This document shows, in pieces, positions 38,094 to 64,000 of a stretch of 64,000 nucleotides of DNA. The position numbers and the translations under genes are program-made. Source of the stretch: Brassica napus (taxonomy: Eukaryota; Streptophyta; Magnoliopsida; Brassicales; Brassicaceae); the NCBI RefSeq assembly GCF_020379485.1, contig NC_063448.1:45951218-46015217 (forward strand). Direction: 5' to 3'. Under the pieces are notes generated by a model, which saw nothing but the letters and a program-made list of their open reading frames with translations, made no database searches and was not told the origin of the DNA. The stretch's first letter is position 1. Every line of letters starts with the position of its first letter.

Positions 38094-38514
38094 CATTTGA
38101 ACATGATTTTTTAACAAGCGAAGTATTTGTATTTCAGCTTGTCTTTGTATAGATTTGTAAATATATAAGTTGTCTGGAAGAAATAAGTCGTCTGGAAGGT
38201 TTTCCAACTGGACGACTTACAAATAAGTCGTCTAGAAGGTTTGGACGACTTATTATAAGTCGTCTGGAAGGTTTTCCAACTGGACGACTTACAAATAAGT
38301 CGTCTAGAAGGTTTGGACGAATTGAAGGGATAGTAGAAGGTAGTCTAAAAATAAAATACACTTGAAGGGATAGTAGAAGGTCGTCTAAAAATAAAATACA
38401 CTGGACGACATAGTAGAAGGTCGTCTAAAAATAAAATACACTGGACGACTAAAAATTTAGTCGTCTGGACGGGTAATCAAGTCTGGACGACTTAAATTTA
38501 GGTCGTCTGGACAA

Positions 38515-43494: not shown

Positions 43495-44857
43495 TCAATG
43501 GTAGTCTGTTTCCGAGTCATCATCACCAGATGAATCTGAATCTGGATCTTGGTGAAACTCTCCAATCACTGGTTCATCCTCTACGTGAACGACGGCTTCC
43601 TCTCCAAAGTCGGTTAAATCGACAACAAGGCCAACTCCAGCTAAATCTTCTGCTGCACTTAAGTTGCCGGATGTGCTTGGTTGTAGTGGGTCTTCCAGCT
43701 CAGAACTTCCCTGAACTCGGCCTCTCGGGTTGAGTCTTGTAACAGTAACCCATGGATCATCTTTGTTCCTTACCCGGGGGTACTTAATATAACAAACCTG
43801 TAACATTTAGAAAATTATAAATTAATACACATGATGATGAATCATTCTGAATAATTAACATTTAATTACCTGATCGGCCTGAGAAGCAAGAATGAAAGGA
43901 TCATAATATTGCAGCTTTCGCCTCGAATTTACTGATGTAACACAAAATGCATCTGTTCTCACACCTCGATCTGGAGTGTTGTCGTGCCAATCACAATAGA
44001 AAACAGTACAGCACAATCCAACCATGCCCAAATACTTGATTTCCAAAATCTCATGTATGTGTCCGTAGTATACATCATCTCCTGATGCAGAACAAACGCC
44101 AGCATCATAAGTCGTACTCGAACGTCTCCTCTTCTGAGTTGTGAATTCATATCCTCGAGTACAAAATCTCGGATATGACTTCACAACAAAGTTTGGTCCA
44201 ACAACCATCTCACGTATCCAATCGTCAAATGTTTCACCTCTGGCCAAACCAGCAAACACCTATTAATATCACATATATATATGTTATATCAATAAATGTG
44301 AATTAGTATAAATATGTGATAAAATATATTTTAATTTGTTTAAAGCACTCACATAAGTAAACATCCATCCAGTAAATTCTCTCTGCTTCATTTCTTCTAG
44401 TTCGTCCTCTGTGGCGTATCTATACTCGAACCGCTTTTCTGCCATGGAAATCATGTATATGATGACAATAATGTAATTAATTAAGATTTAAATTTCAACT
44501 TGTTAAAATAAAAATTTGTAAGCTCATTTATTTACCTCTCATATTGTAGAACGTCTTCGCAGTTGGTGAGCAAATATGTTTGCAAATGACTGCGCTCCTG
44601 CTCAGTAAGTCGACGGTCCTTTGGTTTTCCGCTAAGTCGTCCAATGTCTGTGAAAATGTCTGGAACCGTAACATGATATGTTGCCCGTTCGCCTCTATCA
44701 TCATGCCGAGCAGGTCTTCTGTTTTTGGTCTGAACTTCTGCTGGAAAGTAGTACTCGGCAAAGTTTGAAGTTTCTTCATTGATCATCTGTGCGACTATAG
44801 TTACTTCCACCCTACTTAAATTTTTCACCATCTTCTTCAAATGGAACATATACCGCT
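43495..44857 (-). pseudogene. TNP2 transposase gene, 3' part (DUF4218 end, DUF4216)
   Basis: Minus-strand exons are about 44857-44535, 44445-44354, 44262-43870 and 43799-43495, with GT-AG introns. They encode the end of a DUF4218-type region (FAEYYFPAEVQTK, HLQTYLLTNCEDVLQYER), a short linker exon (GWMFTY), a DUF4216-type region (YYGHIHEILEIKYLG, VFYCDWHDNTPDRGVR, FILASQADQ) and an acidic tail ending SGDDDSETDYH. CACTA TNP2 proteins cut at the element ends. This part looks intact but is cut from its 5' half by the gypsy insertion at 44857, within the DUF4218 exon. Confidence 0.85.
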
Positions 44858-45359
44858 TGTGAGAGACAAGGTTTCACTTCTTAGATTTAGGTTAGGTCAA
44901 GAGAGATGAATGAGAATCGTGGGCTGAATCCCGTAAATAAACTTGAAGAATGAATATGATTTTATTGATGAGTTGAAAGATGATGAATACAAAGGAATGT
45001 ATCTTGAGATGATTACTAAAGAATACGTAATGCTTTTAATCTAGTACAAAAGTTGATATATGGAAAAGAGATGGCTTGTCTTTTATCTTCTCCGTCTTTA
45101 TATAGTCTAGGTTTCGTTGGCAACCCTTCAACTGTTCTCCGAGATATTCGGCTTCAATTACGGAACTCGCTTTAGGCTCCTCTTGACCGAGTCTCTTAAG
45201 GTGTTAGCTCACTTTCTGTCGTGACCTCTGCTATGATGTCTCCCAGGTCCAGTCGTCAGCTCGGCTTTCAGCTCCCTTTGTTATGATGGGCTTATCGCAA
45301 CCCACATGCTAGCTCACGCTTATCGGTACCTCACCTGAGGGTCATATTCGGGTCCAACA
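44858..45359 (-). repeat. 3' LTR of gypsy element 1
   Basis: On the plus strand it runs TGTGAGAGACAAGG to GGGTCCAACA; on the element strand it therefore starts TGTTGGACCC and ends CTCTCACA. A CTATATAAAG TATA box on the minus strand lies at about 45096-45106. Confidence 0.96.
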
Positions 45360-45377
45360 GTTGCCCCCAGCTTCCGA
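45360..45377 (-). promoter_or_regulatory. Polypurine tract of gypsy element 1
   Basis: Read on the minus strand, GGAAGCTGGGGGCAA directly precedes the 3' LTR, where plus-strand DNA synthesis is expected to start. Element 2 has the same tract at 60169-60186. Confidence 0.7.
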
Positions 45378-45562
45378 ATAAAATCCTTTGTCTCGGAAGC
45401 TAGAATCTAGCTATCGATCTTATCTTTTCGTTAAGATAATGATTAGTTCTTATCCTATTTAGATTCAGCTTACTCGATCTAACGGTCTTTATTACGTTTG
45501 GCAGAATCTACGGTTCAGATGGAGAGGGTTTGAAATGACTTTTCCGAATCTCGAGAGGTGAT

Positions 45563-45574
45563 GGGATATAAAGC
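45563..45574 (+). promoter_or_regulatory. TATA-like element for the antisense gene
   Basis: GATATAAAGC on the plus strand, about 175 bp upstream of the antisense ATG and outside the LTR, suggests the antisense gene has its own promoter. It is conserved in element 2 (about 60376). Confidence 0.5.
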
Positions 45575-45746
45575 GGTGAACATTAACTGCTAGCCTCCCA
45601 CTTTCTCCACGCCTCCGTTCGGTTTTCAAGGTAACTTCTCTCCTCTCTCTTTATTTTACTGCGATTTTTTTATCTTCCTCGTTACTTTTCTCTGCAAATT
45701 CTCTCCCAAACCTTGCAATCGATTTTCTCCTTAACCTTCCCATACT

Positions 45747-48241
45747 ATGGATCATCCGAAAGAAGGTTCCGGGGAATCCGGGATGCCTCCCTCTGCTTCT
45801 GGAGCTAAACTACTGAAAGTTAAGCAAGAAGTCGGAGCCAAGATGAGGAAGGGGAAAAAGACAGCCAGGGAGGCAATCGCGACCAGAGTTTCTAAACGGA
45901 AGAAGAAAGACGATTCTAGTGGGAGCAGTCCTCACTCGCCTTCGTTGCTGAAAAATCAAGACGTGGTTAACCTCATGGTTCAAGCTCTCGGCCAAAAGGA
46001 GCTTGGCCGTGCCTGTAATTCCGACGAAACCCCCGAGACCGCTCCGGAGGGTTGGTTCTGTTGCCATGAGAAGTACATCTCCAAGTCTCACTTGAGATTT
46101 CCTCTTCCGACCCTACTGCTTGATCTACTAGATCATTATCAGTTAGCCCTTTCCCAACTCTGTCCCTCGGTTATCCGGGTGATAAACGGCTTTATCACTA
46201 GGTCCAAAGAGGAGGGGGTTAGCGTCGGTCTTACCGAACTTATGAGCCTCTTTTCCCTGAAGGAAAGCGCCTCTAAGGAGGGTGGTACCGGGACCTACTA
46301 CCTCCCTAGTCGTCCCAATCATGTTATCTTCAGGTTCTCTAGTAGTGATGATGACTGGAGGAAGAAGTATTTTTACGTTAAAGTTGATCCTTCGACGGTT
46401 CCTGTGGGTCGGAACCTTAGGGTCACTTGGACTAATCCATCTGGTTAGGAATTCTAGGGATATGCTTTTTCCGTTTTATTCATTTATGGCCGAGTAACCT
46501 TTTTGCTCTGATTTACTTGCAGAAATCGAAGATCCTCCGAAGCTCTCTACCAAGCTCACCAGGGCTCTATACCGCAAGTTGCAGCAGAGTCCCTGTACCT
46601 GGGTAGCCTACACCACTTCTCGAATAAGTGCAGCCAGATTCCCAGATACCTACAACGCCTCTTTCCAAGATCCCATTCCTGCTGAGAACCTTGAGAGTGA
46701 GTTCTTGTCCGAACCTTTTCAATGATTTTATCGCTTTGAAGTTTTTAAACTTAAGGATTTCCATTGTTCCAGTTTCGGCAGGCGATTCGGTTGTATCGAT
46801 CTCAACTGGTGCTAGTGCTTCGGGAACTGAAAAGTCTCAGCCAGGTGACATGACTCTGCGACCATCATTCCGTTCTAGGGGTAACCCCTCTAAAGCTGCC
46901 AGTGCTTCTCGTGGAAGCGACAGGAACCAAGGAGGATCGTTCCTTATCTCAATGAAGGAAGTTTTGGACGACGGAGGATCCAAACCTGTTGTCGAGACTA
47001 CTCCAACTGAGGTTGTAGCTCAGGATGCTGCTCCTCTCCCTGAGGTCCAGGTGCCGGAGGCTGACTACCAGGCTCCGAAGGGTACCTCTGAGGTCGAGCC
47101 GTCGAGACACAAGAGGCCCAGGACCGATCAGGGCGGAGCTCCCACCCGTTCTTCTTCCTCGTCCTCTAGAGGAGGGACTGTTGGGTGGAGCTTTACCCAT
47201 TCGAAGCCTGGGTCGATCCTGGACGACTCTTGGGGCCTAGCTGCGATAATGAGGCACCTGAAGAGCGTGGGATGTCCCCTTCCAGCGCTCAAGGACCTGA
47301 CTAACCGAGATGAGTATCTCGATATTGCCCACTGTATGGGTCAGGTACGTGATCTCTATCTGTTCTTTGTTTACATTCTTTGGAGACGATGATATATATA
47401 TATTTTTTTGGATTTATTGCAGTTGGCTGGGGCTGTTAACAGGGCCCAGCTCAGGTTTGAGAATGCTCTGTGTGCTGCCCCCAATGCTGGTGAACTTGCT
47501 GAGGTTACCGAGATGGTTAAGGCAGCCAAAGCCGATCTTGACCAAGCCCGGGTTCGAATTTCTGAACTCGAAGCCGAAGTGACGAGGCTAGGCTCGAAGG
47601 CCGATGCTCAGCAAGGAGAGATCGAGAGTCAAAAGCTCGATATCCAGGTGAAGAGCAGGAGGATCAATGATTTGGAGGCTGCTCGAAAGATAGCTGAGCA
47701 TCAAGTACGTGAGCTCATTGCCTCATCCCAGGATAGCCAGAAGAACAAGGAAGCTGAAGTCAAGCTGGCTGTCAGGGAAGGGAAGAAAGAAGTCGCCGAA
47801 GCTTACGGCAAGATCCTGGTCTGTGTTAAGGAGAAGTTTGCTAGGAAGAAAGATGAGGTCAACGCCTTGGTGTACGCTCAGGAGCTCCAAGCTAATGCCG
47901 ACCTCTTGAAGGATATGCTGAACAACAAGATCCAAAGCGTTGAAGAGGAGTACAACCAATTGGTGGCCTTATTACCAGAAGCGACAACTGCGTATGAGAA
48001 GGCTCAAGTCTCTGACTTCTCGGTCAGCAAGCTTCCTCTTCCCCAGATCTCGGAGAGTTCAGGTACTTTCGAGATTAACATGTTTAATCCATCCTTTTCT
48101 GGGGAGTATGGCTCTAATTTGGGTTTGATGGCTCCTGACTTAGCTCCAGTCGAGGCAGCAATAGGAGGTGATGGCAATGTGGTCGATGAGGGAGTTCCTG
48201 CCGGTGCTGGTGATCCGATTCAGGAAGAGAAGGAAGATTGA
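45747..48241 (+). CDS. Antisense ORF of Tat-type gypsy element (Transposase_28-like plus coiled coil)
   Basis: Exons 45747-46443, 46523-46696, 46773-47344 and 47423-48241 join in phase through GT-AG introns to give 753 residues without a stop. After a Lys-rich N-terminus (KMRKGKKTAR), residues 95-230 resemble the plant 'putative gypsy type transposon' family (Pfam Transposase_28): KSHLRFPLPTLLLDLLDHY, VIRVINGFI, RPNHVIFRFSSSDDDWRKKY. The middle is Ser/Pro-rich with a basic stretch (RHKRPRTDQ). The last exon is a long Glu/Ala/Lys-rich coiled coil with an acidic tail (IQEEKED). It is opposite in strand to gag and pol and lies between pol and the 3' LTR, as described for antisense ORFs in Tat elements. 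Its molecular role is unknown. Element 2 carries a broken copy. Confidence 0.85.
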
Positions 48242-48729
48242 GAGCTACGGCTCTTTTAGCTTTATGTTTTGTGTTTTTAAGACTTCGGCCTAAGGGCTTT
48301 GTTTCGTTATGCATTATGACTTAGTGCCTGAGGAGGCCTTTAAACCTTAACACTTGCTGGATTTCAATAGCCTGGGGAGGCTTTTAAACCCTTTCTTATG
48401 TTTAAATCGTGGCTATTATTTCTGTTTTAAGTTTTTGAACTTAACCTCGTTTCATTTAATCATAGTGATTGCGAATCTCAGATGAGTTGTGTGCTGTCAT
48501 CGTTGAGTCGGATTAGGACCTTTAGTCTTAATTTATGATAAGCATTTAGCTTAATGGATATTCGGTCGTGATAACCTTAAAGAGAAGTTCTTGATTTTAG
48601 CTCGGGGACCTGAGTCCGATTCGAAAGGTTCTGGGACCTGGTTGTTCAGGTTCGTAGGAACCTGGATTTAGATTCATAGGGACCTGAGTTAATTCGAAGG
48701 ACTTCGAGGCCTTTGAAGTTTAACGGATG

Positions 48730-48960
48730 GAATTGAGGAATTTCGGGATTTTCCTGATTCTTTAGGATTTTAAGACCTTTCGATTTTGATAAGGGTTTCA
48801 AGACCTTTGGTTTTGATTAGGATTTTAGGACCTGGTTGATTGTTAAGGATTTTAGGACCTTGCTGATTGTTAAGGATTTTAAGACCTTAGTTTATGTTAA
48901 GGATTTTAAGACCTTTGGGTGTATTAAGGATTTTAAGACCTTAGGTTCAGGTTTTCAGGG
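48730..48960 (+). repeat. 27-bp tandem repeats, about 7 units
   Basis: Units on AAGGATTTTAAGACCTT with variable 10-12 bp linkers (TTGCTGATTGTT, TTAGTTTATGTT, TTTGGGTGTATT). They lie between the antisense gene and the 3' end of pol. Element 2 has three more units at 63560-63840. Confidence 0.9.
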
Positions 48961-49270
48961 ACCTGAATGTATTCGAGATTGTTGAGCTTAGGTCCCGATT
49001 TAGGGGGACCTAAATTTTCTTGGAGGGTTTTAAGACCTTTGATGTTTATGAAACTGAATCAATCGTTTTATTAATATCAGATATCAGAGAATACATGATT
49101 CAGATTATTTACACAGTAACTATTTTTAGGCTAAGTGTTCTTGGTAACACCTGCCCCTTTGGCTTAGGTGAGGAGGTTGGTGAGAAGAGGTTGGGGCTGC
49201 ACTCATGACGGAGTTGCCTACGTACCCAGTCAAGGGATCAAGCCAAACGTAGTTCAGGGGTTTTAGGTAC

Positions 49271-52200
49271 CTAATGATAGTATCTTTTGAGGTTCGTGGC
49301 ATTCCACGATCGGATTTCAGGTACCCCGGTTCGTACCTTCTGGAGTTTGTAAACTCCGGGTCGTACTATGTGGATAATTCGGTAGGGTCCTTCCCAGTTG
49401 GTTCCTAACTTTCCAGCTCCCGGTTCCTTTGTTCCTTCGAACACTTTCCTAAGCACTAGGTCCCCTACGGCGAACTGTCGGGGCCTTACTTTGGAATTGT
49501 AGTGTCGTGCCATTGCTTGCTGATAATTTTGAATGCGAAGCAAGGCTTGGTCTCGTCTTTCCTCGATCAAGTCGAGGCTATCCATCAGGAGCTGGTTATT
49601 AGCTGCGGGATTTGAGGTGCAGAGCTCCCGTCTGAGGCTACCTGCGGTGGTTTCTGCTGGGACGACAGCTTCCATCCCATAAGCTAAGGAGAAGGGAGTT
49701 TCCTCTGTAGCTTTTCGTGGGGTGGTTCGGCAGGCCCATAGTACTTCGGGTAGTTTTTCCGACCAAAGCTCCTTTTGGGCTCCTAGGCGTTTCTTGAGGT
49801 TTGCTAAAACTGATTTGTTGGCAGCCTCCGCCTGTCCGTTCCCTTGAGGTCGCCGAGGTGATGAGAAGGTGAGGCGGATGTTCCATTTATCGCAGAAACT
49901 TTTGAAGTCGTGGGATATGAACTGTCCTCCATTGTCGGTTACGATTTCGTATGGGACGCCATGCCTGCATACGATGTTTTTCCAAACAAATCCTTCGACC
50001 TCGAATCTGTTTATTTGTTGGAAAGCTTCAGCTTCAATCCATTTCGTGAAGTAGTCGGTTAGGACCAGGAGGTTTAGTAACTTCTTTCCTTTCCCTGAAG
50101 GTACTAATGGACCTATAATGTCCATAGACCACCTCATGAATGGGTAGGGAGCTGATATGTTAGACAGCTTTTCCGCTGGTTGGTGTATGATCGGTGCATG
50201 CCTTTGGCATTTGTCGCACGATGAGGAGTAGACCTCACAATCTGCGATAATGGTAGGCCAGAAGTAGCCTTGTCTTTTTATTCGGATGGCTAAGGCTCTG
50301 CCTCCGGAATGGTTTCCACAGGAACCGTCGTGCATTTCCTTCATGAGTTTCATAGCTACTAGGCCGTGAACGCATTTTAGGTAAGGTCCGGAGACACTTC
50401 GTTTGTGGAGGGCTGACTCGATTATACAGTATCTTGCTGCTAAAGCTTTGAGTTTTCGAGCCTCCCACTTGTTGGGTGGAATTTTTCCCTCTAGGATGTA
50501 ATCCATGATCGGTATTCTCCAGTCTTCTCTCCCTACAACTTTGTTGTGAAGAGAGGAGGGAGATTCCTGTTCGGGACCTGGTGCCGTGGTGCCCCCGGAG
50601 ATATTCGTTGGAGTAGGTTCTGGGTTCTGAGGAATATCTCCAATTTCCTCGTTATCCCCTGTGGTTTGTGTAGCGTTCCTAGATGCGTTTTTAAGAGCGG
50701 TGCGGCTTCTTGTTTGGACTTTATAGACAAGTGGCTCCGAGGTCTGGATGGTGCCCCCGGAGGTACTCGTAGAGTTAGGCTCTAGGGAGTCTGAACTTCG
50801 GTGAGTACCTTCACTTTTGTCGTTGTTTTCCGGGTTCTGGGTTGCTTTCCTGGAGGTGTGCTTTCTAAAGCTGCGTGTTCTAGTTTTCGGGAACCAGAAT
50901 GTCGTGAAAACTTGGGTAGCTACCGTCGGGAGGCTGTTATCCTCTATTTTTTCCTTTGGTTTGCTATCCATCTCAGCCTTGGTAGCTATGTCGATACTTG
51001 GCTTCTCGATTCCTTCCACGGGTATAATTCGTTTTACGAGAGGGTCGGATGTGGAAGCTAATGCGGCGAGCGCGTCTGCTGAGGAGTTCTCCCCTCGTGG
51101 GATCCTCGTTAGCTCGAACTTGTCAAACTGCTTTGTGAGGTTTAGGACGACCTCGAGGTATGCCCCCATTCTTTCGTCCCTTGTTTCGTATTCCCCGTGA
51201 AACTGGCTAGCTACCAGCTGCGAGTCGCTGTAGGCGTTTAGCTCCCGAATTCCGAGGCTCAGGGCGAGCTTTAATCCAGCGATTAGTGCTTCGTACTCGG
51301 CCTCGTTGTTGGAAGCGTTAAATCCAAGTCTATAGGATTGTTCGATGGTTTCTCCGGCTGAGGAGGTTAGTCTTAAACCGACACCGGAGCCTTGCCTTGA
51401 CGAGGCTCCGTCCACGTATAGGCTCCATTTCGGAACCTCTGTTTCCTGGTCTAGATGTTCGGATGCTAGCTCAATAACGAAATCGGCGAGGACCTGAGCT
51501 TTTGCTGCTGCTCGGGGTCTGTACTCGATGTCGTACTCGCTGAGCTCTATAGCCCATTTTGCTAATCGTCCGGATTGGCTAGGGCTATGCAGAATCGTCC
51601 GTAATGGTTGTGAGGTCATTACGATGATCGAGTGCGATTGGAAATAAGGTCGCAGCTTCCTGGCAGCTGTCACGACTGCTAGGGCTAGTTTTTCCATGGT
51701 GGGATATCTCGTCTCGGCGTCTATTAAGCTTTTGCTAGTATAATAGACAGGTCTCTGTTCGTTTTGTTCCTCTCGTACTAGCACTCCGCTGACTGCAGCT
51801 GCCGACACGGCGAGGTACAGGTACAGTGGTTCTCCTACTACAGGTTTGGATAGTATCGGAGGTTCCGAGAGGTAAGCCTTCAGCTGTTTGAAGGCTTCTT
51901 CGCACTTTTCATCCCATAAGAACTTCTTATTATTTTTCAGAAGTTTATAGAATGGAAGGCATTTATCGGTGGACCTGGAGATGAATCGATTTAGTGCTGC
52001 GATCCGTCCGGTCAATCTTTGTACCTCTCTGGTCGTTTTAGGTGATGGCATTTCCAGGAATGTCGCTATTTGTTTCGGGTTGGCTTCGATGCCTCTTTCG
52101 GTTACGAGGTAACCTAGGAATTCGCCGGAAGGTACTCCGAAGGTACACTTAGCTGGGTTTAGCTTCATGTCGTATTTGTTGAGGATTTCGAAACATTCTC

Positions 52201-52951
52201 TTAGATGGGAGATGTGGTCCTCCCCCTTTGAGGATTTGACTAACATGTCGTCGATGTAGACTTCCATGGTTTTTCCGAGTTGTCCAGCGAACATTTTATT
52301 TACTAACCTTTGATAGGTAGCTCCCGCGTTTTTCAAACCAAACGGCATGACCTTGTAACAATAGGTTCCTCGTTCAGTTATGAATGCGGTTTTCTCTTGA
52401 TCCTCAGGATCCATCATAATCTGGTTATATCCTGAAAAGGCATCCATAAAGGACAAGAGCTGGTGTCCAGCCGTTGCTTCGACCAAACGATCGATATGAG
52501 GTAACGGGAAGCTGTCCTTAGGACAGGCTTTGTTTAAATCGGTGAAGTCTACACAGATTCTCCATTTCCCATTCTTCTTTTTTACTACCACTGGGTTAGC
52601 TAGCCAATCGGGGTATTGTACCTCTCGGATGGACCCGGCCTTTGTTAGTCGATCGACCTCGTCGTTGACAGCTTGGGCTTTTTCTAGACCTAGCTTACGA
52701 CGTTTCTGTTTGATCGGTTTAAAAGTAGGGTCTACATTGAGCTTATGAGTGGTGACATTTGCATCTATGCCTTTCATGTCGCTGGTGGTCCATGCAAAGG
52801 TTTTGATATTCTGTTTTAGGAATTCGACGAGCTCCTTTTTGGTTTCGAGAGGTAGCTCGGATCCGATGCTCACCTGTTTCTCAGGATTTGAGTCGTCGAT
52901 GCTAACTTTTTCGGTGAGGTTCTTAGGGGGACCTCGGATATTTCGTTGCAT
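49271..52951 (-). CDS. Gypsy pol polyprotein: RT, RNase H, archaeal-type RNase H, integrase
   Basis: 1226 codons counted from the ATG, open upstream to the gag stop in the same frame. Reverse transcriptase covers about residues 75-280 with YIDD at 232-235. The connection-type RNase H follows (about 365-490). A second, archaeal-type RNase H covers about 508-635 (YVDGASS, NNEAEYEAL, YSDSQLV, SADALA). Residues 640-805 are a low-complexity tether with an internal duplication. Integrase has a zinc-binding H2C2 set (H874, H881, C912, C915) and the DDE triad at about D944, D1006 and E1042, and ends KLQKVRTGVPEIRSW. The products copy element RNA into DNA and insert it. All catalytic motifs are present. 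The ATG is probably not the natural start, since the frame is joined to gag through a UAG. Confidence 0.95.
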   Translation of the reverse strand: MQRNIRGPPKNLTEKVSIDDSNPEKQVSIGSELPLETKKELVEFLKQNIKTFAWTTSDMKGIDANVTTHKLNVDPTFKPIKQKRRKLGLEKAQAVNDEVDRLTKAGSIREVQYPDWLANPVVVKKKNGKWRICVDFTDLNKACPKDSFPLPHIDRLVEATAGHQLLSFMDAFSGYNQIMMDPEDQEKTAFITERGTYCYKVMPFGLKNAGATYQRLVNKMFAGQLGKTMEVYIDDMLVKSSKGEDHISHLRECFEILNKYDMKLNPAKCTFGVPSGEFLGYLVTERGIEANPKQIATFLEMPSPKTTREVQRLTGRIAALNRFISRSTDKCLPFYKLLKNNKKFLWDEKCEEAFKQLKAYLSEPPILSKPVVGEPLYLYLAVSAAAVSGVLVREEQNEQRPVYYTSKSLIDAETRYPTMEKLALAVVTAARKLRPYFQSHSIIVMTSQPLRTILHSPSQSGRLAKWAIELSEYDIEYRPRAAAKAQVLADFVIELASEHLDQETEVPKWSLYVDGASSRQGSGVGLRLTSSAGETIEQSYRLGFNASNNEAEYEALIAGLKLALSLGIRELNAYSDSQLVASQFHGEYETRDERMGAYLEVVLNLTKQFDKFELTRIPRGENSSADALAALASTSDPLVKRIIPVEGIEKPSIDIATKAEMDSKPKEKIEDNSLPTVATQVFTTFWFPKTRTRSFRKHTSRKATQNPENNDKSEGTHRSSDSLEPNSTSTSGGTIQTSEPLVYKVQTRSRTALKNASRNATQTTGDNEEIGDIPQNPEPTPTNISGGTTAPGPEQESPSSLHNKVVGREDWRIPIMDYILEGKIPPNKWEARKLKALAARYCIIESALHKRSVSGPYLKCVHGLVAMKLMKEMHDGSCGNHSGGRALAIRIKRQGYFWPTIIADCEVYSSSCDKCQRHAPIIHQPAEKLSNISAPYPFMRWSMDIIGPLVPSGKGKKLLNLLVLTDYFTKWIEAEAFQQINRFEVEGFVWKNIVCRHGVPYEIVTDNGGQFISHDFKSFCDKWNIRLTFSSPRRPQGNGQAEAANKSVLANLKKRLGAQKELWSEKLPEVLWACRTTPRKATEETPFSLAYGMEAVVPAETTAGSLRRELCTSNPAANNQLLMDSLDLIEERRDQALLRIQNYQQAMARHYNSKVRPRQFAVGDLVLRKVFEGTKEPGAGKLGTNWEGPYRIIHIVRPGVYKLQKVRTGVPEIRSWNATNLKRYYH

Positions 52952-52972
52952 TTCGCGACTCTCCTGGATCTG

Positions 52973-52981
52973 TAATTGCTA
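52973..52981 (-). promoter_or_regulatory. Leaky-stop (readthrough) context between gag and pol
   Basis: On the minus strand the gag frame ends CAA TAG CAA TTA, and the pol frame continues in the same frame without another stop. UAG followed by CARYYA is the tobamovirus-type readthrough signal, and CAATTA fits it exactly. Expected outcome: mostly gag-protease with a small amount of gag-pol fusion. Inferred from sequence only. Confidence 0.8.
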
Positions 52982-55609
52982 TTGGGGGGATTCTTTTATG
53001 ATCTCGAATCCTCCCAGGTAACAGATCCTTGAAATCTTTTGGCTACCGTGTATGGTAGCTATTCCGTTGGTTGTTGGAAATTTCACGCATTGGTGATAAG
53101 TTGAAGCTACTGCTTTCATCTTATGAATCCAAGGCCTTCCGAGGATTGCGTGGAAAGGGGATGGTTTGTCGACAACTATGAAGTTGGTCATTTTCATGAC
53201 TCCGCCAGCTATAATTGGGAGCTTAATTGTTCCCAATGAGGTGGCTGTTTCACCTGAGAAACCTACGAGGTTGGATTTCTGGTCGACAATTTCGTAGTCG
53301 TCTATTTCCATTCCCTTTAGTGCGTTGTAGAAAATAAGATCGACGGAGCTTCCGGTGTCGATCATGAGCTTAGGTACCTCGTACCCTGCTATATTTAATG
53401 TTATGACAAGGGCATCGTCATGAGGTCTATCGAGGTCTAATGTCTCACTCTCCCAGAAAGAGATCTTAGTGTTAGACTCAGGCTTGGTCGGTTTGGACTG
53501 AGTGTTTGACACAGCTTTCCGTACGTGACTTTTAATAGAGTTAACGGAGTCTTGACACACATCGGACCCTCCAAGGATGTAATCGATCCTTGAGCCAGGG
53601 CTCGATTGGGGAGGTGGTTTACTCAAGAGGGCCTCGATTTGTAGGCTTTTTCCTTGTGGAAACTTTCCAAGGATCATATCGACTCTCTTTTTGGGAGCTG
53701 GGGGTGGTGAGTCTGTTTCTTTTTCAGGTGACCTCTCGCGTTTTGGAGAGCTATCTCTGGGACCTCTCTTCTGATAAGGTTGTGGCTTTTTGAGGTCCAC
53801 ATCTTTTATTTCTCCGGCTGCGAATTTAGCAGCCAGTTGTCGTTGGAGGTCCCAACATTCTTCGGTTGAATGTCCCTTTCGATCGTGGTAAGAGCAATGT
53901 TTGCTCTCGTCATAACCTTTGGACCAGGGGGCTTTAGCTGTCGCGGCGACAGGTTTTTCTTCCTTGTCTTCCTCGACTACGTAAGAATGTTCTCCCTGGG
54001 TCTGATTATTTCGGGAGCTACCTCTTTTGTGAGGTCCCTTTCCATCGGAGGCTTCGCCTTTCGGGTGACTCTGGGGTTTTCTGTGGAGCTTATCTAATGC
54101 TGCCATTTCCTCCTCCAAGGTAATGTATCTAGAGGCCTTATGGAGGGCGTCATCGATAGTTGGAGGGGGATTTAGCGTTAGCTCCGAGAAGAAACCTGAT
54201 TTATACCAGAGACCTCTCCTAAGAGCCTCAATGGCTACCTGATCGTTGGGATTCGAGAGTTTAGTTCTTACTGCTCTGAACTTTTCGATGTAGACTCGCA
54301 GTGAGTCTCCCAGTCCTTGTCTGATCTTCCAGAGGTCAGCCTCAGACGCTTGTTTCAGGATGTGAGTTGAATATTGCTTCATAAAGGCGTTAGCCAATTG
54401 ATCGAAACTGTCTATAGAGTTCGGCTCGAGGCTGGAGAACCATTCGAGAGCTGTTCCGATCAGGTTTTCGGCAAATGTTCTGCAATATCCTGCATCACAC
54501 TCTTCCTTTGTGAAGTGAGCTTTAACGATAGCTAATCGGAAGGCTCTTAAATAGGCCTTTGGGTCTGCGTTCCCATCGTATTCAGGAATCTTAATTTTTC
54601 GAGTATCTCTTATGTAAGAGTTGGCAATTCTATCGGTGAACGGAGTTCCACGAGTCTCCTCAATTAAGCTCTCGATTTCGGGAGCTGAGCTCGTTACCTT
54701 GTGAACTTGAGCTCCCAATTTCTGGAGAGCTGCGTGGGTTCGCTCCATGTACCTGCGAATTGCGTCAGGTCCCTCGAAGGGAAGGACATTTGGGTCATTA
54801 TCAGATACTCGGCGAGCAGGTTCCTGGTGAGACCGAGCTCGGTCGTCTTCCCAGCTAGCTGGCGAAATAGGTCGCTCATTGGTCCTTAGGCTCCGAGCGA
54901 GGTTAGTGCGGAGAGCTGCAGGATCAGCATCCGTCCTTTGGTATTCGTCTGTGCTTGGGGTTGAAACCCTAGCTTGAAACACTGAAGCTGATGTTCTGGC
55001 CCCGGACGGTATGTTGGTTCCTGCTCCAGACCCGGAAGGAGGTGGCGGTGGAGGCAAACGGGTGCTCCCACCGGTGTTTCGATCAGGCATGGAGCTAGTT
55101 GTAGCTACATTGCTCCCCATGGTGCTGGTGATAGGAGGGGTAAACGCAGGAGCTGTCCTAGCGCGAGGCGTTTGGAAAGCAGGTTCCTGCCCTTCTGCAC
55201 CTGGGCTATCAGGGGAGAAGTTCAGGCGCTCTCTAGGGAAGGAAGGGTCAGCTAACCGTTCATGGAAAGTGACTCCTCTTCCCTGGTGGACGGACGGTTG
55301 GGTCGTTGCGGATTGAGATCTGGTTATCTCTTCGAACTGTTGCTGCCGTTCGGCTAACTGTTGCACCGTTCGCTCGGTCTCTTGAGCTTTGTCCACTAAC
55401 TGGAGCATCATCCGACGGATCTCAGAAAGCTGATCTTCCGTTTGGTTCGGAGCGGATTGATGCGATGGGTTATTGAGGGCTGAGGACCCAGAGTTGGTCC
55501 CTCCGGAGGCTCTCGGGTTATTTGCCCCCGGAGCAGTGCGATTCGGTGAGCTATTGCTCTGGTTCGATTGATCGGGGTTAGATGGATTCGTTCCGTCTAA
55601 TGGATTCAT
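52979..55609 (-). CDS. Gypsy gag-protease polyprotein
   Basis: 876 residues. The N-terminal third is Asn/Ser/Pro/Gly-rich. A Retrotrans_gag domain lies at about 340-490 (AYLRAFRLAIVKAHF, NLIGTALEWFSSL, ADLWKIRQGLGDSLR). A zinc-knuckle-like CSYHDRKGHSTEEC follows near 565-580. The C-terminal part is a retropepsin-type aspartic protease with DTGSS at about 751-755 and ILGRPW near 822. Gag forms the particle and packages RNA; protease matures it. ATG at 55609 is chosen because it opens the frame 56 bases inside the 5' LTR boundary, directly after the leader. No breaks seen. Confidence 0.94.
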   Translation of the reverse strand: MNPLDGTNPSNPDQSNQSNSSPNRTAPGANNPRASGGTNSGSSALNNPSHQSAPNQTEDQLSEIRRMMLQLVDKAQETERTVQQLAERQQQFEEITRSQSATTQPSVHQGRGVTFHERLADPSFPRERLNFSPDSPGAEGQEPAFQTPRARTAPAFTPPITSTMGSNVATTSSMPDRNTGGSTRLPPPPPPSGSGAGTNIPSGARTSASVFQARVSTPSTDEYQRTDADPAALRTNLARSLRTNERPISPASWEDDRARSHQEPARRVSDNDPNVLPFEGPDAIRRYMERTHAALQKLGAQVHKVTSSAPEIESLIEETRGTPFTDRIANSYIRDTRKIKIPEYDGNADPKAYLRAFRLAIVKAHFTKEECDAGYCRTFAENLIGTALEWFSSLEPNSIDSFDQLANAFMKQYSTHILKQASEADLWKIRQGLGDSLRVYIEKFRAVRTKLSNPNDQVAIEALRRGLWYKSGFFSELTLNPPPTIDDALHKASRYITLEEEMAALDKLHRKPQSHPKGEASDGKGPHKRGSSRNNQTQGEHSYVVEEDKEEKPVAATAKAPWSKGYDESKHCSYHDRKGHSTEECWDLQRQLAAKFAAGEIKDVDLKKPQPYQKRGPRDSSPKRERSPEKETDSPPPAPKKRVDMILGKFPQGKSLQIEALLSKPPPQSSPGSRIDYILGGSDVCQDSVNSIKSHVRKAVSNTQSKPTKPESNTKISFWESETLDLDRPHDDALVITLNIAGYEVPKLMIDTGSSVDLIFYNALKGMEIDDYEIVDQKSNLVGFSGETATSLGTIKLPIIAGGVMKMTNFIVVDKPSPFHAILGRPWIHKMKAVASTYHQCVKFPTTNGIATIHGSQKISRICYLGGFEIIKESPQ

Positions 55610-55644
55610 CCTTTAAGCTTTAGAGAAAGGGATTCGATTATTTG

Positions 55645-55664
55645 TCCCCACAGACGGCGCCAAT
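55645..55664 (-). promoter_or_regulatory. Primer-binding site of gypsy element 1
   Basis: On the minus strand TGGCGCCGTCTGTGGGGA follows the 5' LTR after two to three bases. This sequence is familiar at the same position in plant Tat-type gypsy elements. The priming tRNA was not determined. Confidence 0.75.
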
Positions 55665-56166
55665 TGTGAGAGACAAGGTTTCACTTCTTAGATTTAGGTT
55701 AGGTCAAGAGAGATGAATGAGAATCGTGGGCTGAATCCCGTAAATAAACTTGAAGAATGAATATGATTTTATTGATGAGTTGAAAGATGATGAATACAAA
55801 GGAATGTATCTTGAGATGATTACTAAAGAATACGTAATGCTTTTAATCTAGTACAAAAGTTGATATATGGAAAAGAGATGGCTTGTCTTTTATCTTCTCC
55901 GTCTTTATATAGTCTAGGTTTCGTTGGCAACCCTTCAACTGTTCTCCGAGATATTCGGCTTCAATTACGGAACTCGCTTTAGGCTCCTCTTGACCGAGTC
56001 TCTTAAGGTGTTAGCTCACTTTCTGTCGTGACCTCTGCTATGATGTCTCCCAGGTCCAGTCGTCAGCTCGGCTTTCAGCTCCCTTTGTTATGATGGGCTT
56101 ATCGCAACCCACATGCTAGCTCACGCTTATCGGTACCTCACCTGAGGGTCATATTCGGGTCCAACA
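55665..56166 (-). repeat. 5' LTR of gypsy element 1
   Basis: 502 bp, apparently identical to 44858-45359. The minus-strand TATA box CTATATAAAG is at about 55903-55913, in the right position to start genomic RNA toward gag. Confidence 0.96.
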
Positions 56167-56171
56167 CCGCT

Positions 56172-58440
56172 CTACATATACTCCATCTATACTGCACAGG
56201 ACCCCAAGGTTCCAATTTCTTCCTAGGTGAATAACAGATGCTCCCATAACTAAAAATGATGGAGGAAATATCTTCTCAGTTTGCCTGAATCCGGCTATGT
56301 TAGTCTTCAATTTTTCAACTTCAGAGTCACTGCTCGTGCATAAATCGCGGAAAAAACCACTTATCCCCCTGCAATTGCTTTCATGAACATTTCGTGGTAA
56401 TAGTTTCCTTGAAGGCGAACGGAAGGAGGCGCTGCATCATACATGGCAAATCGTGGCTTTTCAAGCCAGAAACTTTCCTTCCTTTCTGTCGATACAGTTA
56501 CGCAAATTTGATCGTACCGTCTGGAAATTCCAATCGTTTGAAATCCAATCAAAACGCATCTTTTCCCGCTGCATCAAGTCGGTATATGGGAAAAGGAGTC
56601 CTACCATTCTCATCAACATGAAGTTCTGAACGAGCACATATATCGACTAAATCCAGTCTTGACTTCAAATTATCCTTTTTTTACCTTGAACATTAAGGAT
56701 CGTGTTCATGAGATTGTCAAAAAAGTTCTTCTCAATATGCATGACATCTAAATTATGCCTTAGCAGATGATCCTCCCAGTATGGCAGATCCCAGAAAATA
56801 CTTTTTTTGTGCCAGTTATGTAGTTCTCCAACAGCATCTACCGGAAAACGCTCATGTCCACCGACGTCTGGCGTCCTTTCTGCACCAAAATCTCTTAGTT
56901 GTATCTTCAAATCTTTCCCACAAATTTCCGGAGGTGGACTGTCAAACACCCTCTTGTTCTTCGTAAACAAATTCCTACTCCTACGATATGGATGATCAGG
57001 TGGTAGGAATCTCCTGTGACAGTCAAACCAACACGTTTTCCTTCCGTGTTTTAGTTGGAAAGCATCAGTGTTATCTTGACAATATGGACATGATAGCCTT
57101 CCATGCGTTGTCCATCCAGACAACATACCATATGCTGGAAAATCACTTATTGTCCACATTAGTACTGCCCGCATTTGAAAGTTTTCTTTACACGAAACAT
57201 CGTATGTTTCAGCACCTTGAGCCCATAGTTGTTGCAACTCATATATTAGTGGCTGAAGAAACACATCAAGTGATCTCTTAGGATGCTCTGGTCCGGGAAC
57301 GAGAATCGAGAGAAACAAAAACTCTCGTCGCAAGCACAAGTTTGGGGGTAGGTTGTATGGTGTAAGAATGACAGGCCATAGAGAATACTGTCTTCCACTC
57401 TTGCCAAACGGACTGAAACCATCAGTACATAATCCAAGATAGACATTTCTTCTCTCATACGCAAAGTCGGATACTTTGATTGGAAATGCTTCCACGCTTT
57501 TGCATCTAAGGATGTCTGATCTCACCATCTGTTGAGTGCTGCTCCGCATGCCATCTCATTGGTTGCGCTGTGCGTTCAGACAGATACAACCTCTGCAACC
57601 TTTCTGTCAAAGGTAAATACCACATCCTATTATATGGCACTGGAACTCTTCCACTCGTATCTTTATAACGAGGCTTTCCACAAATTTGCATGTAACCCGC
57701 TGTTCATCCGCCCTCCAATAAATCATGCAGTTGTCGCTGCATACATCTATTACCTGATACGATAAACCAAGACCAGCTACGAGTTTCTGAACCTCGTAGT
57801 ATGAACCAGGAGCTACATTATCCTCGGGTAGAATACCTTTTACAAAATCAGCAATCGCATCCACACAGTCTTCAGCCAAATTATAATCTGTTTTAATGCC
57901 CATCAATCTTATTGCAGATGATAAAGCTGAATGACCATCTCTGCAACCTTCGTACAATGGTTGCTTTCCAGCATCCAACATATCATAAATCTCCTAGCTT
58001 CTGCATTGGGTAAATCTTCCTCTCTAAAATGATCATTTACCATTTGCTCAGTACCTACACCATAATCTACATCCGTTCTAATTGGTTCTTCTAATCTAAC
58101 CGCTGACTGAGGTTCGCTAGTACTACCATGTTATAATCAGTTTCCCCATGATGATACCAAATATTGTAACTTCGTGTAAACCCACTCAAATATAGATGAG
58201 TCCAAACATCTCACTCTTTAATAACCTTTCTATTTTTACAATTAGAGCAGGGACATCTTAACATACCTGTTTTTTCTTCCGGTTGTCGGTGAACTAACCC
58301 CATGAATTCGGTTATACCTCGTTGGTATTCTTCCGTAAGCAATCTCGTGTTCGGATCCAAATGAGGTCGATCGATCCAAGAACGAAATAATTTGAAGAAG
58401 ACATATTTTTTATGAATCAAATTCGTGTGTAAATAGAGTA
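56172..58440 (-). pseudogene. TNP2 transposase gene, 5' part (Transpos_assoc, Transposase_21), decayed
   Basis: Minus-strand pieces in order: a Transpos_assoc-like N-terminus (RSWIDRPHLDPNTRLLTEEY, LRCPCSNCKNRKVIKE); a stretch at 57981-57610 (GYCL-type IDVCSDNCMIYW); and a Transposase_21 region at 57549-56665 (NVYLGLCTDGFSPFG, PGPEHPKRSLDVFLQPL, GWTTHGRLSCPYC, HNLDVMHIEKNFFDNL). The start of DUF4218 is cut by the gypsy insertion at 56166. Breaks seen: a small insertion near 58390 shifting the first residues, an in-frame TGA near 58208, and frame changes near 58000, 57690, 57480 and 56670. TNP2 would be the transposase of this CACTA family; this copy cannot make it. Confidence 0.85.
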
Positions 58441-58824: not shown

Positions 58825-59663
58825 TGCTCTTTATATGGCCTGATGCATATTATCAGTTTATACATGTAAATTCATAATGTCTCCAAGCTTATAGACTTTA
58901 TATTCTTATCCTTATAGATAATGGCTTATATGGCCGAACCTGTGTAGGTAATGGTCTTTCCGGCCGTTATGGCCTTTACGGTTGAGCCATTTATGACATG
59001 GTCTCTTCGGCCGAGTAATGGCCTTTATGGTTTGGCCGTTTAAAACATGGTCTAGACCATAGTAGTACACGAACTTGTAGTATTGAGCATGGTTTATCCT
59101 CTCTTCCCCTCATGAACATACTATAATTTCGTGGTGCTTGAGACAATAAAGCCTTAATGATTTCCCTTTGTGTACATGTTTCACAACGTGAGATCTTTTA
59201 CGGATAATTCTTTGTGCCTTTTCAATATTAATCTTTGCATCAAATTTAGACTTAGGATGGCTAATCCGGTCTTGCCCTAAAGTTTATGATTTCGTGGGAT
59301 ATATCAGTATATAGTCACCACGGCTCTTGCCTCTTATCATACTGATCTGTAGCATAGTATTGATCAGTAGAAGAGTACATAGGTATAGTCTTCCACTTTC
59401 TTTTAAGGTCTTAGGTGATTTTCTTTCAAATCTGAGGAACTTATTTCCTTTGTTTGCCCATTGTTCTATTTAGAAACCATTATATAACTCAATGGGTCCA
59501 CATATTATTGGGTGTATCTAATCCCTTTAGACAATGCCTTGGCCATAGTTTTCTTACTAGGCTACTATACCCCATTCACGATTTCTTACTTGGTAATGCC
59601 ATGCCCTTAGGCGATTCATTATCAATAGAATCATTCATATATTCAGTGGTCAGGCAAGGTAAT
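58825..59663 (-). mobile_element. Inverted internal fragment of the Copia-type family
   Basis: This stretch matches, as reverse complement, about 15395-16335 of the 12621-19064 element. Shared words include TATATGGCCTGATGCATAT, ATAATGTCTCCAAGCTTATAGA, GGTTTATCCTCTCT, TTCGTGGTGCTTGAGACAAT and CACAACGTGAGATCTTTTAC. It has no LTR. The CACTA right end abuts it at 58824/58825, and gypsy element 2 begins at 59664. It is thus a remnant of the DNA into which both inserted. Confidence 0.88.
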
Positions 59664-60168
59664 TGTGAGAGACAAGGTTTCACTTCTTAGATTTAGGTTA
59701 GGTCAAGAGAGATGAATGAGAATCGTGGGCTGAATCCCGTAAATAAACTTGAAGAATGAATATGATTTTATTGATGAGTTGAAAGATGATGAATACAAAG
59801 GAATGTATCTTGTGATGATCAAAGAATACGTAATGCTTTTAATCTAGTACAAAAGTTCATCCATGAAAAAAAAGAGAGCCCTTGTCTTTTATCTTCTCCA
59901 TCTTTATATAGTCTAGGTTTCGTTGGCAACCCTTCAACTGTTCTCCTAGATATTTGGCTTCAATTACGGAGCTCGCTTTAGGCTCCTCTTGACCGAGTCT
60001 CTTAAGGTGTTAGCTCACTTTCTGTCGTGACCTCTGCTATGATGTCTCCCAGGTCCAATCGTCAGCTCGGCTTTCAGCTCCCTTTGTTATGATGGGCTTA
60101 TCGCAACCCACATGCTGCTAGCTCACGCTTATCGGTACCTCACCTGAGGCTCATATTCGGGTCCAACA
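59664..60168 (-). repeat. 3' LTR of gypsy element 2
   Basis: 505 bp with the same termini as the element 1 LTRs. Differences include loss of a few bases near 59818, a changed stretch near 59858-59880 and an added GCT near 60117. Confidence 0.93.
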
Positions 60169-60556
60169 TTTGCCCCCAGCTTCCGAATAAAATCCTTTGT
60201 CTCGGAAGCTAGAATCTAGCTATCGATCTTATCTTTTCGTTAAGATAATGATTAGTTCTTATCCAATTTAGATTCAGCTTACTCGATCTAACGGTCTTTA
60301 TTACGTTTGGCAGAATCTATGGTTCAGATGGAGAGGGTTTGAAATGACTTTTCCGAATCTCGAGAGGTGATGGGATATAAAGCGGTGAACATTAACTGCT
60401 AGCCTTCCACTTTCTCCACGCCTCCGTTCGGTTTTCAAGGTACTTCTCTCTTCTCTCTTTTTACTTTACTGCGATTTTTTTATCTTCCTCGTTACTTTTC
60501 TCTGCAAATTCTCTCCCAAACCTTGCAATCGATTTTCTCCTTAACCTTCCCATACT

Positions 60557-63047
60557 ATGGATCATCCGAAAGAAGGTTCCGGGGAATCCGGGATGCCTCC
60601 CTCTGCTTCTGGAGCTAAACTACTGAAAGTTAAGCAAGAAATCGGCCAAGATGAGGAAGGGGAAAAAGACAGCCAGGGAGGCAATCGCGACCAGAGTTTC
60701 TAAACGGAAGAAGAAAGACGATTCTAGTGGGAGCAGTCCTCACTCGCCTTCGTTGCTGAAAAATCAAGACGTGGTTAACCTCATGGTTCAAGCTCTCGCC
60801 CAAAGGAGCTTGGCCGTGCCTGTAATTCTGACGAAACCCCCGAGACCGCTCCGGAGGGTTGGTTCTGTTGCCATGAGAAGTACATCTCCAAGTCTCACTT
60901 GAGATTTCCTCTTCCGACCCTACTACTGCTTGATCTACTAGATCATTATCAGTTAGCCCTTTCCCAACTCTGTCCCTCGGTTATCCGGGTGATAAACGGC
61001 TTTATCACTAGGTCCAAAGAGGAGGGGGTTAGCGTCGGTCTTACCGAACTTATGAGCCTCTTTCCCTGAAGGAAAGCGCCTCTAAGGAGGGTGGTACCGG
61101 GACCTACTACCTCCCTAGTCGTCCCAATCATGTTATCTTCAGATTCTCTAGTAGTGATGATGACTGGAGGAAGAAGTATTTTTATGTTAAAGTTGATCCT
61201 TCGACGGTTCCTGTGGGTCGGAACCTTAGGGTCACTTGACTAATCCATCTGGTTAGGAATTCTAGGGATATGCTTTTTTTCGTTTTATTCATTTATGGCC
61301 GAGTAACCTTTTGCTCTGATTTACTTGCAGAAATCGAAGATCCCCCGAAGCTCTCTACCAAGCTCACCAGGGCTCTATACCGCAAGTTGCAACAGAGTCC
61401 CTGTACCTGGGTGGCCTACACCACTTCTCGAATAAGTGCAGCCAGATTCCCAGATACCTACAACGCCTCTTTCCAGATCCCATTCCTGCTGAGAACCTGA
61501 GAGTGAGTTCTTGTCCGAACCTTTTCAATGATTTTATCGCTTTGAAGTTTTTAAACTTAAGGATTTCCATTGTTCCAGTTTCGGCAGGCGATTCGGTTGT
61601 ATCGATCTCAACTGGTGCTAGTGCTTCGGGAACTGAAAAGTCTCAGCCAGGTGACATGACTCTGCGACCGTCATTCCGTTCTAGGGGTAACCCCTCTAAA
61701 GCTGCCAGTGCTTCTCATGGAAGCGACAGGAACCAAGGAGGATCGTTCCTTATCTCAATGAAGGAAGTTTTGGACGACGGAGGATCCAAACCTGTTGTCG
61801 AGACTGCTCCAACTGAGGTTGTAGCTCAGGATGCTGCTCCTCTCCCTGAGGTCCAGGTGCCGGAGGCTGACTACCAGGCTCCGAAGGGTACCTTTGAGAT
61901 CGAGCCGTCGAGACACAAGAGGCCCAGGATCGATCAGGGCGGGGCTTCCATCCGTTCTTCTTCCTCGTCCTCTAGAGGAGGGACTGTTGGGTGGAGCTTT
62001 ACCCATTCGAAGCCTGGGTCGATCCTGGATGACTCTTGGGGCCTAGCTGCGATAATGAGGCACCTGAAGAGCGTGGGATGTCCCCTTCCAGCGCTCAAGG
62101 ACCTGACTAACCGAGATGAGTATCTCGATATTGCCCACTGTATGGGTCAGGTACGTGATCTCTATCTGTTATTTGTTTACATTCTTTGGAGACGATGATT
62201 ATATATATATTTTCTTTGGATTTATTGCAGTTGGCTGGGGCTGTTAACAGGGCCCAGCTCAGGTTTGAGAATGCTCTGTGTGCTGCCCCCAATGCTGGTG
62301 AACTTGCTGAGGTTACCGAGATGGTTAAGGCAGCCAAAACCGATCTTGACCAAGCCGGGTTCGAATTTCTGAACTCGAAGCCGAAGTGACGAGGCTAGGC
62401 TCGAAGGCCGATGCTCAGCAAGGAGAGATCGAGAGTCAAAAGCTCGATATCCAGGTGAAGAGCAGGAGGATCAATGATTTAGAGGCTGCTCGAAAGATAG
62501 CTGAGCATCAAGTACGTGAGCTCATTGCCTCATCCCGGGATAGCCAGAAGAACAAGGAAGCTGAAGTCAAGCTGGCTGTCAGGGAAGGGAAGAAAGAAGT
62601 CGCCGAAGCTTACGGCAAGATCCTGGTCTGTGTTAAGGAGAAGTTTGCTAGGAAGAAAGATGAGGTCGACGCTTTGGTGTACGCTCAGGAGCTCCAAGCT
62701 AATGCCGACCTCTTGAAGGATATGCTGAACAACAAGATCCAAGCGTTGAAGAGGAGTACAACCAATTGGTGGCCTTATTACCAGAAGCGACAACTGCGTA
62801 TGAGAAGGCTCAAGTCTCTGACTTCTCGGTCAGCAAGCTTCCTCTTCCCCAGATCTCGGAGAGTTCAGGTACTTTCGAGATTAACATGTTTAATCCATCC
62901 TTTTCTGGGGAGTATGGCTCTAATTTGGGTTTGATGGCTCCTGACTTAGCTCCAGTCGAGGCAGCAATAGGAGGTGACGGCAATGTGATCGATGAGGGAG
63001 TTCCTGCCGGTGCTGGTGATCCGATTCAGGAAGAGAAGGAAGATTGA
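60557..63047 (+). pseudogene. Broken antisense gene of gypsy element 2
   Basis: Nearly identical to 45747-48241 but with frame changes: about 60645 (two bases lost), 60799, 61063, 61239, 61476, 61498, 62357 and 62743 (one base lost at each), plus an in-frame triplet gain near 60925. The single-base losses are within runs of the same base. Splice sites at 61330, 61500, 61580, 62151 and 62230 are kept. No full-length product is possible as sequenced. Confidence 0.88.
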
Positions 63048-63555
63048 GAGCTACGGCTCTTTTAACTTTATGTTTTGTGTTTTTAAGACTTCGCCTAAGG
63101 GCTTTGTTTCGTTATGTTTTGTGACTTAGTGCCTGAGGAGGCCTTTAAACCTTAACGCTTGCTGGATTTCAATAGCCTGGGGAGGTTTTTAAACCCTTTC
63201 TTATGTTTAAATCGTGGCTATTATTTCTGTTTTAAGTTTTTGAACTTAACCTCGTTTCATTTAATTATAGTGATTGCGAATCTCAGATGAGTTGTGCCGT
63301 CATCGTTGAGTCGGATTAGGACCTTTAGTCTTTATTTATGATAAGCATTTAGCTTAATGGATATTCGGTCGTGATAACCTTAAAGAGGAGTTCTTGATTT
63401 TAGCTCGGGGACCTGAGTCCGATTCGTAAGGTTCTGGGACCTGGTTGTTCAGGTTCGTAGGAACCTTTATTTAGATTCATAGGGACCTGAGTTAATTCGA
63501 AGGACTTCGAGGCCTTTGAAGTTTAACGGATGGAATTGAGGAATTTCGGGATTTT
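63048..63555 (+). other. Spacer downstream of the broken antisense gene
   Basis: Counterpart of 48242-48730 in element 1: non-coding DNA with repeated GGACCTG words. No gene seen. Confidence 0.7.
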
Positions 63556-63559
63556 CCTG

Positions 63560-63840
63560 ATTCTTTAGGATTTTAAGACTTTTCGATTTTGATAAGGGTT
63601 TCAAGACCTTCTGGTTTTGATTAGGATTTTAGGACCTGGTTGATTGTTAAGGATTTTAAGACCTTGCTGATTGTTAAGGATTTTAAGACCTTAGTTTATG
63701 TTAAGGATTTTAAGACCTTGTTGATTGTTAAGGATTTTAAGACCTTGCTGATTGTTAAGGATTTTAAGACCTTAGTTTATGTTAAGGATTTTAAGACCTC
63801 TGGGTGTATTAAGGATTTTAAGACCTTAGGTTCAGGTTTT
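63560..63840 (+). repeat. 27-bp tandem repeats, about 10 units
   Basis: Same units as 48730-48960 with an extra block of three consecutive units (81 bp) whose linkers repeat the order TTGNTGATTGTT, TTGCTGATTGTT, TTAGTTTATGTT. The open frame across it (repeating VKDFKTL) is only a by-product. Confidence 0.9.
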
Positions 63841-64000
63841 CAGGGACCTGAATGTATTCGAGATTGTTGAGCTTAGGTCCCGATTTAGGGGGACCTAAAT
63901 TTTCTTGGAGGGTTTTAAGACCTTTGATGTTTATGAAACTGAATCAATCGTTTTATTAATATCAGATATCAGAGAATACATGATTCAGATTATTTACACA

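Follow-up and report, generated by a model that had tools for sequence, protein, structure and literature searches.

A UAG codon that separates gag-protease from pol in a Brassica napus LTR retrotransposon stands in the exact context of the leaky tobamovirus stop, and it is very likely that the element uses it as a programmed leaky stop, with readthrough of the tobamovirus type yielding Gag-Pro plus some Gag-Pro-Pol. Judged from its sequence, the element would probably make a little enzyme by means of ribosomes that pass the stop. In the proposed mechanism, most ribosomes would halt at the UAG and release Gag-Protease; the CAA-UAG-CAA-UUA context would weaken termination, and a minority of ribosomes would decode the UAG with an amino acid (tyrosine being the likeliest in plants) and carry on through the sequence for reverse transcriptase, RNase H and integrase. 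From a single mRNA, Gag-Pro could in this way be made in a fixed excess, with Gag-Pro as the presumed main product and Gag-Pro-Pol as the minor one. The readthrough itself and its rate are inferred, as are the amino acid inserted and any contribution of the predicted RNA stems.

The element and its gag-pol junction

The window, i.e., the whole stretch of 64,000 nucleotides of B. napus DNA that was analysed, contains one complete element and part of a second copy of the same family:

44858-56166, minus strand: complete Retand-type Ty3/gypsy LTR retrotransposon, 11,309 nt, with TG..CA ends, identical LTRs, target-site duplication and domains
55665-56166, minus strand: 5' LTR, 502 nt, identical to the 3' LTR
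44858-45359, minus strand: 3' LTR, 502 nt
44853-44857, unstranded: target-site duplication CCGCT, one side
56167-56171, unstranded: target-site duplication CCGCT, other side
55645-55662, minus strand: primer-binding-site-like sequence just inside the 5' LTR, a putative primer-binding site
45747-46448, plus strand: antisense ORF with Transposase_28 (TRP28, PF04195), a hallmark of Retand, located between pol and the 3' LTR
47408-48241, plus strand: second antisense ORF (DUF1633)
48755-48947, unstranded: listed element part, 3' of the pol frame
59661-64000, minus strand: second copy of the Retand family of the studied element, cut by the window end before the gag-pol junction

The LTRs are identical over 502 nt and the 5-bp duplication CCGCT is present on both sides, in agreement with the intact gypsy element described in the earlier note. 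The further argument made there, that identical LTRs make the stop more likely functional, is weak on its own even though the LTRs are indeed identical, since a mutation can also be spread by a young burst.

Protein domain searches, which were run on the gag-pro and pol pieces separately, gave the order RT, RH, RVT_3, H2C2, rve in pol. RVT_3 (PF13456) at 523-640 represents a second RNase H (aRH) besides RT_RNaseH at 383-482, and a second RNase H in the polyprotein distinguishes the Tat clade of the Ty3/gypsy OTA elements in the excerpted text of PMC6317226. The aRH sits between RH and INT, which is the Retand order and is common to Ogre too. The region between pol and the 3' LTR holds a 27-bp tandem array alongside the antisense Transposase_28 ORF, two features for which the comparison was taken from an excerpt of PMC11963269. 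By the extra RNase H, the antisense Transposase_28 ORF and the tandem array, the element matches the Retand lineage of the Tat clade, so far as sequence features can place it.

The junction itself is made up of the following parts:

52979-55609, minus strand: gag-protease ORF, 876 codons plus TAG, with Retrotrans_gag and DTGSS at residue 751
53129-53401, minus strand: retropepsin-like protease (PF13650, E 4e-4, 21.4 bits, just under the curated cut-off of 24.3)
52982-52984, minus strand: CAA codon preceding the stop, with adenines at -1 and -2
52979-52981, minus strand: UAG stop, proposed readthrough site
52973-52978, minus strand: CAATTA, type I (CARYYA) readthrough hexamer, context per an excerpt of PMC3542737
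49271-52978, minus strand: pol frame, 1235 codons plus stop, with RT, RNase H, second RNase H (aRH) and integrase
52949-52951, minus strand: first ATG of the pol frame, 27 nt past the stop, with G at -3

The observation from which the analysis started holds in full: the gag-protease frame terminates on the minus strand as CAA-TAG-CAA-TTA, and pol follows in phase and without an internal stop over 1235 codons counted from the stop, or 1226 counted from the first ATG. With CARYYA after the UAG and an open frame in phase behind it, the junction has the sequence form of a type I readthrough site. The tobamovirus context as printed in the excerpted PMC3542737, A-UAG-CAA-UUA, is matched exactly, and adenines at -1 and -2 are said in the same text to stimulate readthrough. 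According to the excerpted PMC2754532, the TMV-TAG context gave 32% readthrough in leaves with tyrosine inserted at the UAG; readthrough was abolished when the C after the stop was changed, was lowered when the 5' base or the third 3' base was changed, and was still significant when the whole 5' CAA codon was replaced. The window junction matches the positions tested there, and the match at the 5' CAA is the less telling one because readthrough survives its replacement.

The bare motif is common: the window contains six TAG-CARYYA 9-mers against 3.5 expected, and 15 of 100 shuffled sequences reach six, so that it is the position and phase of the site that carry the argument. Within gag-pol of the element, in-frame CAR-YYA codon pairs occur five times in 2109. 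These figures bear on the possibility that the UAG is an ordinary nonsense mutation (for instance, CAG to TAG in a methylated element) spread by a recent burst, while other copies or families provide pol in trans. Elsewhere in gag-pol, three of the 890 one-base routes to a stop lie before CARYYA and none of these three gives TAG, which speaks against a nonsense origin, under which the exact hexamer would need explaining. We consider such an origin improbable, and further evidence on both of its sides comes from the other copies of the family.

Copies of the family and related junctions

The B. napus assembly (997 Mb, 3116 contigs) was searched with the 21-mer that spans the junction, CCCCAATAGCAATTACAGATC. 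There were 70 exact matches and one match with a single mismatch; 19 further places were found at two or three mismatches, and a reversed control gave 13 matches at three mismatches or fewer. Twelve of the 19 places were fetched and had no protein homology to the junction region (in one, there was just an 18-nt match). L061, the copy with one mismatch, belongs to the family and reads TAG-AAATTA, with the first base of the hexamer changed. A search independent of the stop used the 110 residues after it as the query, and 150 of 2485 candidates were scored. Among the scored matches, 70 belonged to the family (85-100% identical, some of them partial), and those beyond the family were at most 63% identical, partial family matches aside. 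By coordinates, 69 of the 70 are exact CCCCAATAGCAATTACAGATC junctions and L061 is the seventieth; an exact junction on contig C485 is missing from this set. A sense codon at the stop position was found in none of the 70, and each of the 71 family junctions located in the genome has the stop. The family-level prediction of the earlier note, which expected the stop and its context to be kept among copies, is therefore borne out, with one changed hexamer base against 70 exact junctions. The stop cannot be the defect of one copy because 71 family junctions carry it and none has a sense codon.

The pol frame measured from stop to stop is exactly 1235 codons long in 42 of the 70 family matches and longer in none, and such retention of the full frame also argues against a nonsense mutation. 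The copies are, however, very much alike. With 400 nt upstream of the junction as the query, 40 places were scored out of 214 candidates; all were 100% identical, and all fall at exact CCCCAATAGCAATTACAGATC junctions, two of them on C485. Thirty of the 70 exact copies were fetched, and their junction-spanning alignments are 99.47-100% identical to the window (L012 was aligned over 1876 of 3021 nt). Copies that are at least 99.47% alike, as in the 30 compared, are so young that a shared hexamer is expected with or without selection, and within-family conservation was rejected as proof of selection for this reason. The very recent common source that this identity implies for all 30 compared copies is also what a nonsense mutation spread by a burst would leave.

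Other Retand families of the same genome have no stop through this region, and their frames run, for example, over 1964 and 1975 codons. No stop was found in the protease-RT linker of 12 sampled junctions from these families, which were hand-picked from the better matches and come mostly from one group of families; in three of them (L077, L079 and L081), the translated sequence has a stop at another place. The stop is thus neither general in the lineage nor needed by it, and the stop-free sampled junctions and single-ORF copies are the second point in favour of a nonsense mutation. The comparison of related junctions proposed in the earlier note accordingly has a divided outcome within the B. 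napus genome: TAG is kept within the family but is absent from all 12 junctions of other families. The same holds for the interpretation offered there, that readthrough sets the ratio of Gag to Gag-Pol. It is supported by the family-wide stop and the exact context, but only in part, given the stop-free junctions of other families and copies too young to reveal selection.

A sister family provides a different comparison. Out of 160 matches, 30 loci (L031-L060) were fetched, and their ORF1 reaches to the alignment column at which gag-pro of the studied element ends; the codon there is TAA in 22 loci, TAG in 5 and TGA in 1, and is not a stop in 2. CARYYA follows the end of ORF1 in none of the 30 loci, and no pol homology was found in any of them with about 1.5 kb of flank each. 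The sister family is apparently gag-only, non-autonomous and Retand-like, with plain stops. The position at which ORF1 ends is thus widespread, and in this genome the leaky context was observed only in the family where an in-phase pol lies behind the stop.

We collected 278 proteins (the first search contributed the best 120 of 208 matches, and the gene models are noisy), of which 52 are of the ORF1 type, ending near the junction and lacking pol. Forty-five of the 52 end at alignment columns 107-111, the last residue of the window protein being at column 110, and seven end elsewhere. The 45 come from sources that include Capsella, Eutrema, Arabidopsis suecica, Camelina, Spinacia, Silene, Acer and Tagetes, and among them are P0001 of the window family and the gag-only P0212. 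Many relatives end ORF1 at the domain boundary on which the stop falls, and this counts against an ordinary nonsense mutation; the column is shared with the gag-only family too, so the position alone does not prove recoding, and the conserved ORF1 end was rejected as such proof.

P0001, from a cluster of 52 members, matches over 808 of 810 amino acids and ends exactly at the stop; P0121, from a cluster of 54 members, matches over 1224 of 1226 and begins at the first post-stop ATG. A Raphanus homologue, P0122, is 88% identical and is annotated from the same ATG, one more point against a nonsense mutation. In 92 of the first 210 proteins collected, a gag-pro tail and a pol head are joined in one model, and a motif search of all 278 found none that reads on from the end of the window gag into the post-stop peptide. 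The Eutrema model P0261 jumps to QLQKQEE, which resembles the post-stop QLQIQES of the window; this jump would fit a TAG taken by the annotation as a splice acceptor.

A few matches came from outside plants. The pol protein P0204 is filed under Escherichia coli from a 4-kb contig; its identity is 71% over half of the query stretch, and it is probably plant contamination. A search of plasmid records gave only distant reverse transcriptases in three records at less than 60% identity; these are NZ_CP065945, NZ_CP065944 and NZ_CP087956 (Bacillus licheniformis and Wolbachia plasmids), with reverse transcriptase matches of 26-41% identity, possibly due to host contamination. No DNA relatives of the element were found in viral contigs or prokaryote genomes.

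Predicted RNA structure and other possible routes to pol

Two RNA structures are predicted next to the stop, both from a single sequence:

52882-52966, minus strand: predicted extended RNA stem-loop, starting 13 nt past the stop
52983-53016, minus strand: predicted RNA hairpin whose end lies immediately before the stop

The 90-nt segment that follows the stop has a folding z of -3.96, and none of 200 shuffled sequences is as stable. In a scan of gag-pol by 211 segments of 90 nt, the four lowest z values are at the junction, two of these four segments (+3 and -90) having been placed there deliberately. In a scan at 9-nt steps with the same segment length (n=695), starts near the junction make up 6 of the 11 segments with z of -4 or below, and with 120-nt segments (n=519) the two lowest z values are near the junction; with 60-nt segments, none of the top 12 starts there. 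Folding peaks are also present about 880 nt upstream and about 1020 nt downstream, and at the junction the opposite strand has a peak as well. The modelled RNA stems at the junction are a lead. It is conceivable, though rather unlikely, that they form part of a composite signal in which a hexamer of the tobamovirus type is set between strong RNA stems, and that a single Brassica Retand lineage acquired this signal, its sampled relatives in the genome having gag-pol as one ORF; the acquisition may be linked to the recent success of that lineage (about 70 near-identical copies).

Pol could also be reached without passing the UAG. One such route is a spliced RNA lacking the UAG, as in Ogre elements, which splice an intron between gag-pro and RT (PMC6317226, excerpted text); two Microthlaspi models, P0002 and P0003, go straight from the end of gag-pro to pol-head residue 25, as a spliced product would. 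In the studied element, however, the ORFs abut and there is no non-coding spacer that would correspond to the Ogre intron. The best in-phase pair of splice sites is equalled or beaten at 97 of 367 sham sites (the splice-site weights are approximate, and the sham sites were unfiltered for in-frame stops), and it starts 396 nt before the stop, so its use would cut out the DTG motif of the protease at 378 nt before the stop. Splicing was rejected on account of the weak splice sites, and we regard it as extremely improbable.

The other route is separate production of pol, with ribosomes reinitiating or entering leakily at the AUG 27 nt past the stop. This AUG is in frame and has G at -3, and the database entries P0121 and P0122 begin there. 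Against it, reinitiation following an ORF of 876 codons is inefficient in plants without a viral helper. A Pol made without Gag would, moreover, have no clear way into particles, and the hexamer would be left unexplained. We consider this route very improbable, and readthrough of the UAG remains the preferred explanation.

Known systems and neighbouring repeats

Among the closest known systems are tobamoviruses with their 126K/183K replicase, which share with the element the A-UAG-CAA-UUA sequence, the flanking CAA codons and the arrangement of a short protein and an extended one that bears the polymerase. Tobamoviruses need the local context only (PMC3542737, excerpted text). Here, in contrast, it is an integrated LTR retrotransposon that has the context, between protease and RT, and RNA stems are also predicted.

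In gammaretroviruses, the protease lies after the stop, whereas in the studied element it precedes it. An in-frame UAG between gag and pol is common to both (PMC2194720 and PMC3542737, excerpted texts), but the gammaretroviral context is of type III, UAG-G with a compact pseudoknot (PMC3542737), and the present one is of type I. SIRE1, a Ty1/copia element of soybean, is likewise a plant LTR element with an in-frame stop (PMC2194720, excerpted text) and stop suppression (PMC2829016); its suppression links pol to an envelope-like ORF and not gag-pro to pol. Ogre belongs to the Tat clade as well and is controlled at the same boundary, but it does so by splicing out a separate region of 274 bp on average (PMC6317226, excerpted text), whereas a single stop codon is all that separates the frames here.

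Within the Retand lineage itself, recently active elements have gag and pol in one ORF in 37 clusters (59%) and in two ORFs in the rest (excerpt of PMC11963269). RIRE2, a gypsy-type element of rice named in the Retand lineage in an excerpt of PMC6317226, is a readthrough candidate too: the excerpted text of PMC2754532, a 2009 paper, cites rice gypsy-type retrotransposons (the RIRE2 paper, Ohtsubo 1999) as candidates only and describes all experimentally verified plant readthrough as viral. Since RIRE2 had already been named, the Brassica family would be a clean new case of a known phenomenon; no published account of the junction of this family was found in the literature searched, whose scope left most subscription papers outside.

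The family offers a young, high-copy and exact context of the tobamovirus type in the genome of a crop plant, and its single-ORF relatives and gag-only sister family are natural comparisons within one genome. These comparisons allow a direct test of whether, and with what frequency, plant retrotransposons change from expression through one ORF to readthrough or back. It can likewise be tested whether genome annotation wrongly splits or splices such genes.

The second copy at 59661-64000 is 97.6% alike over 4.1 kb, and its 27-bp array is longer, with about 9.9 units against about 6.8 in the first copy; a Transposase_21 (tnp2) ORF lies between both Retand copies at 56665-57549. In the region 34587-38323, the motif AAGTCGTC/GACGACTT is the basis of several arrays and inverted pairs, and at 39031-39652 there is a foldback or MITE-like element, an inverted repeat with 219-nt arms that are 97% complementary and spaced by 184 nt.
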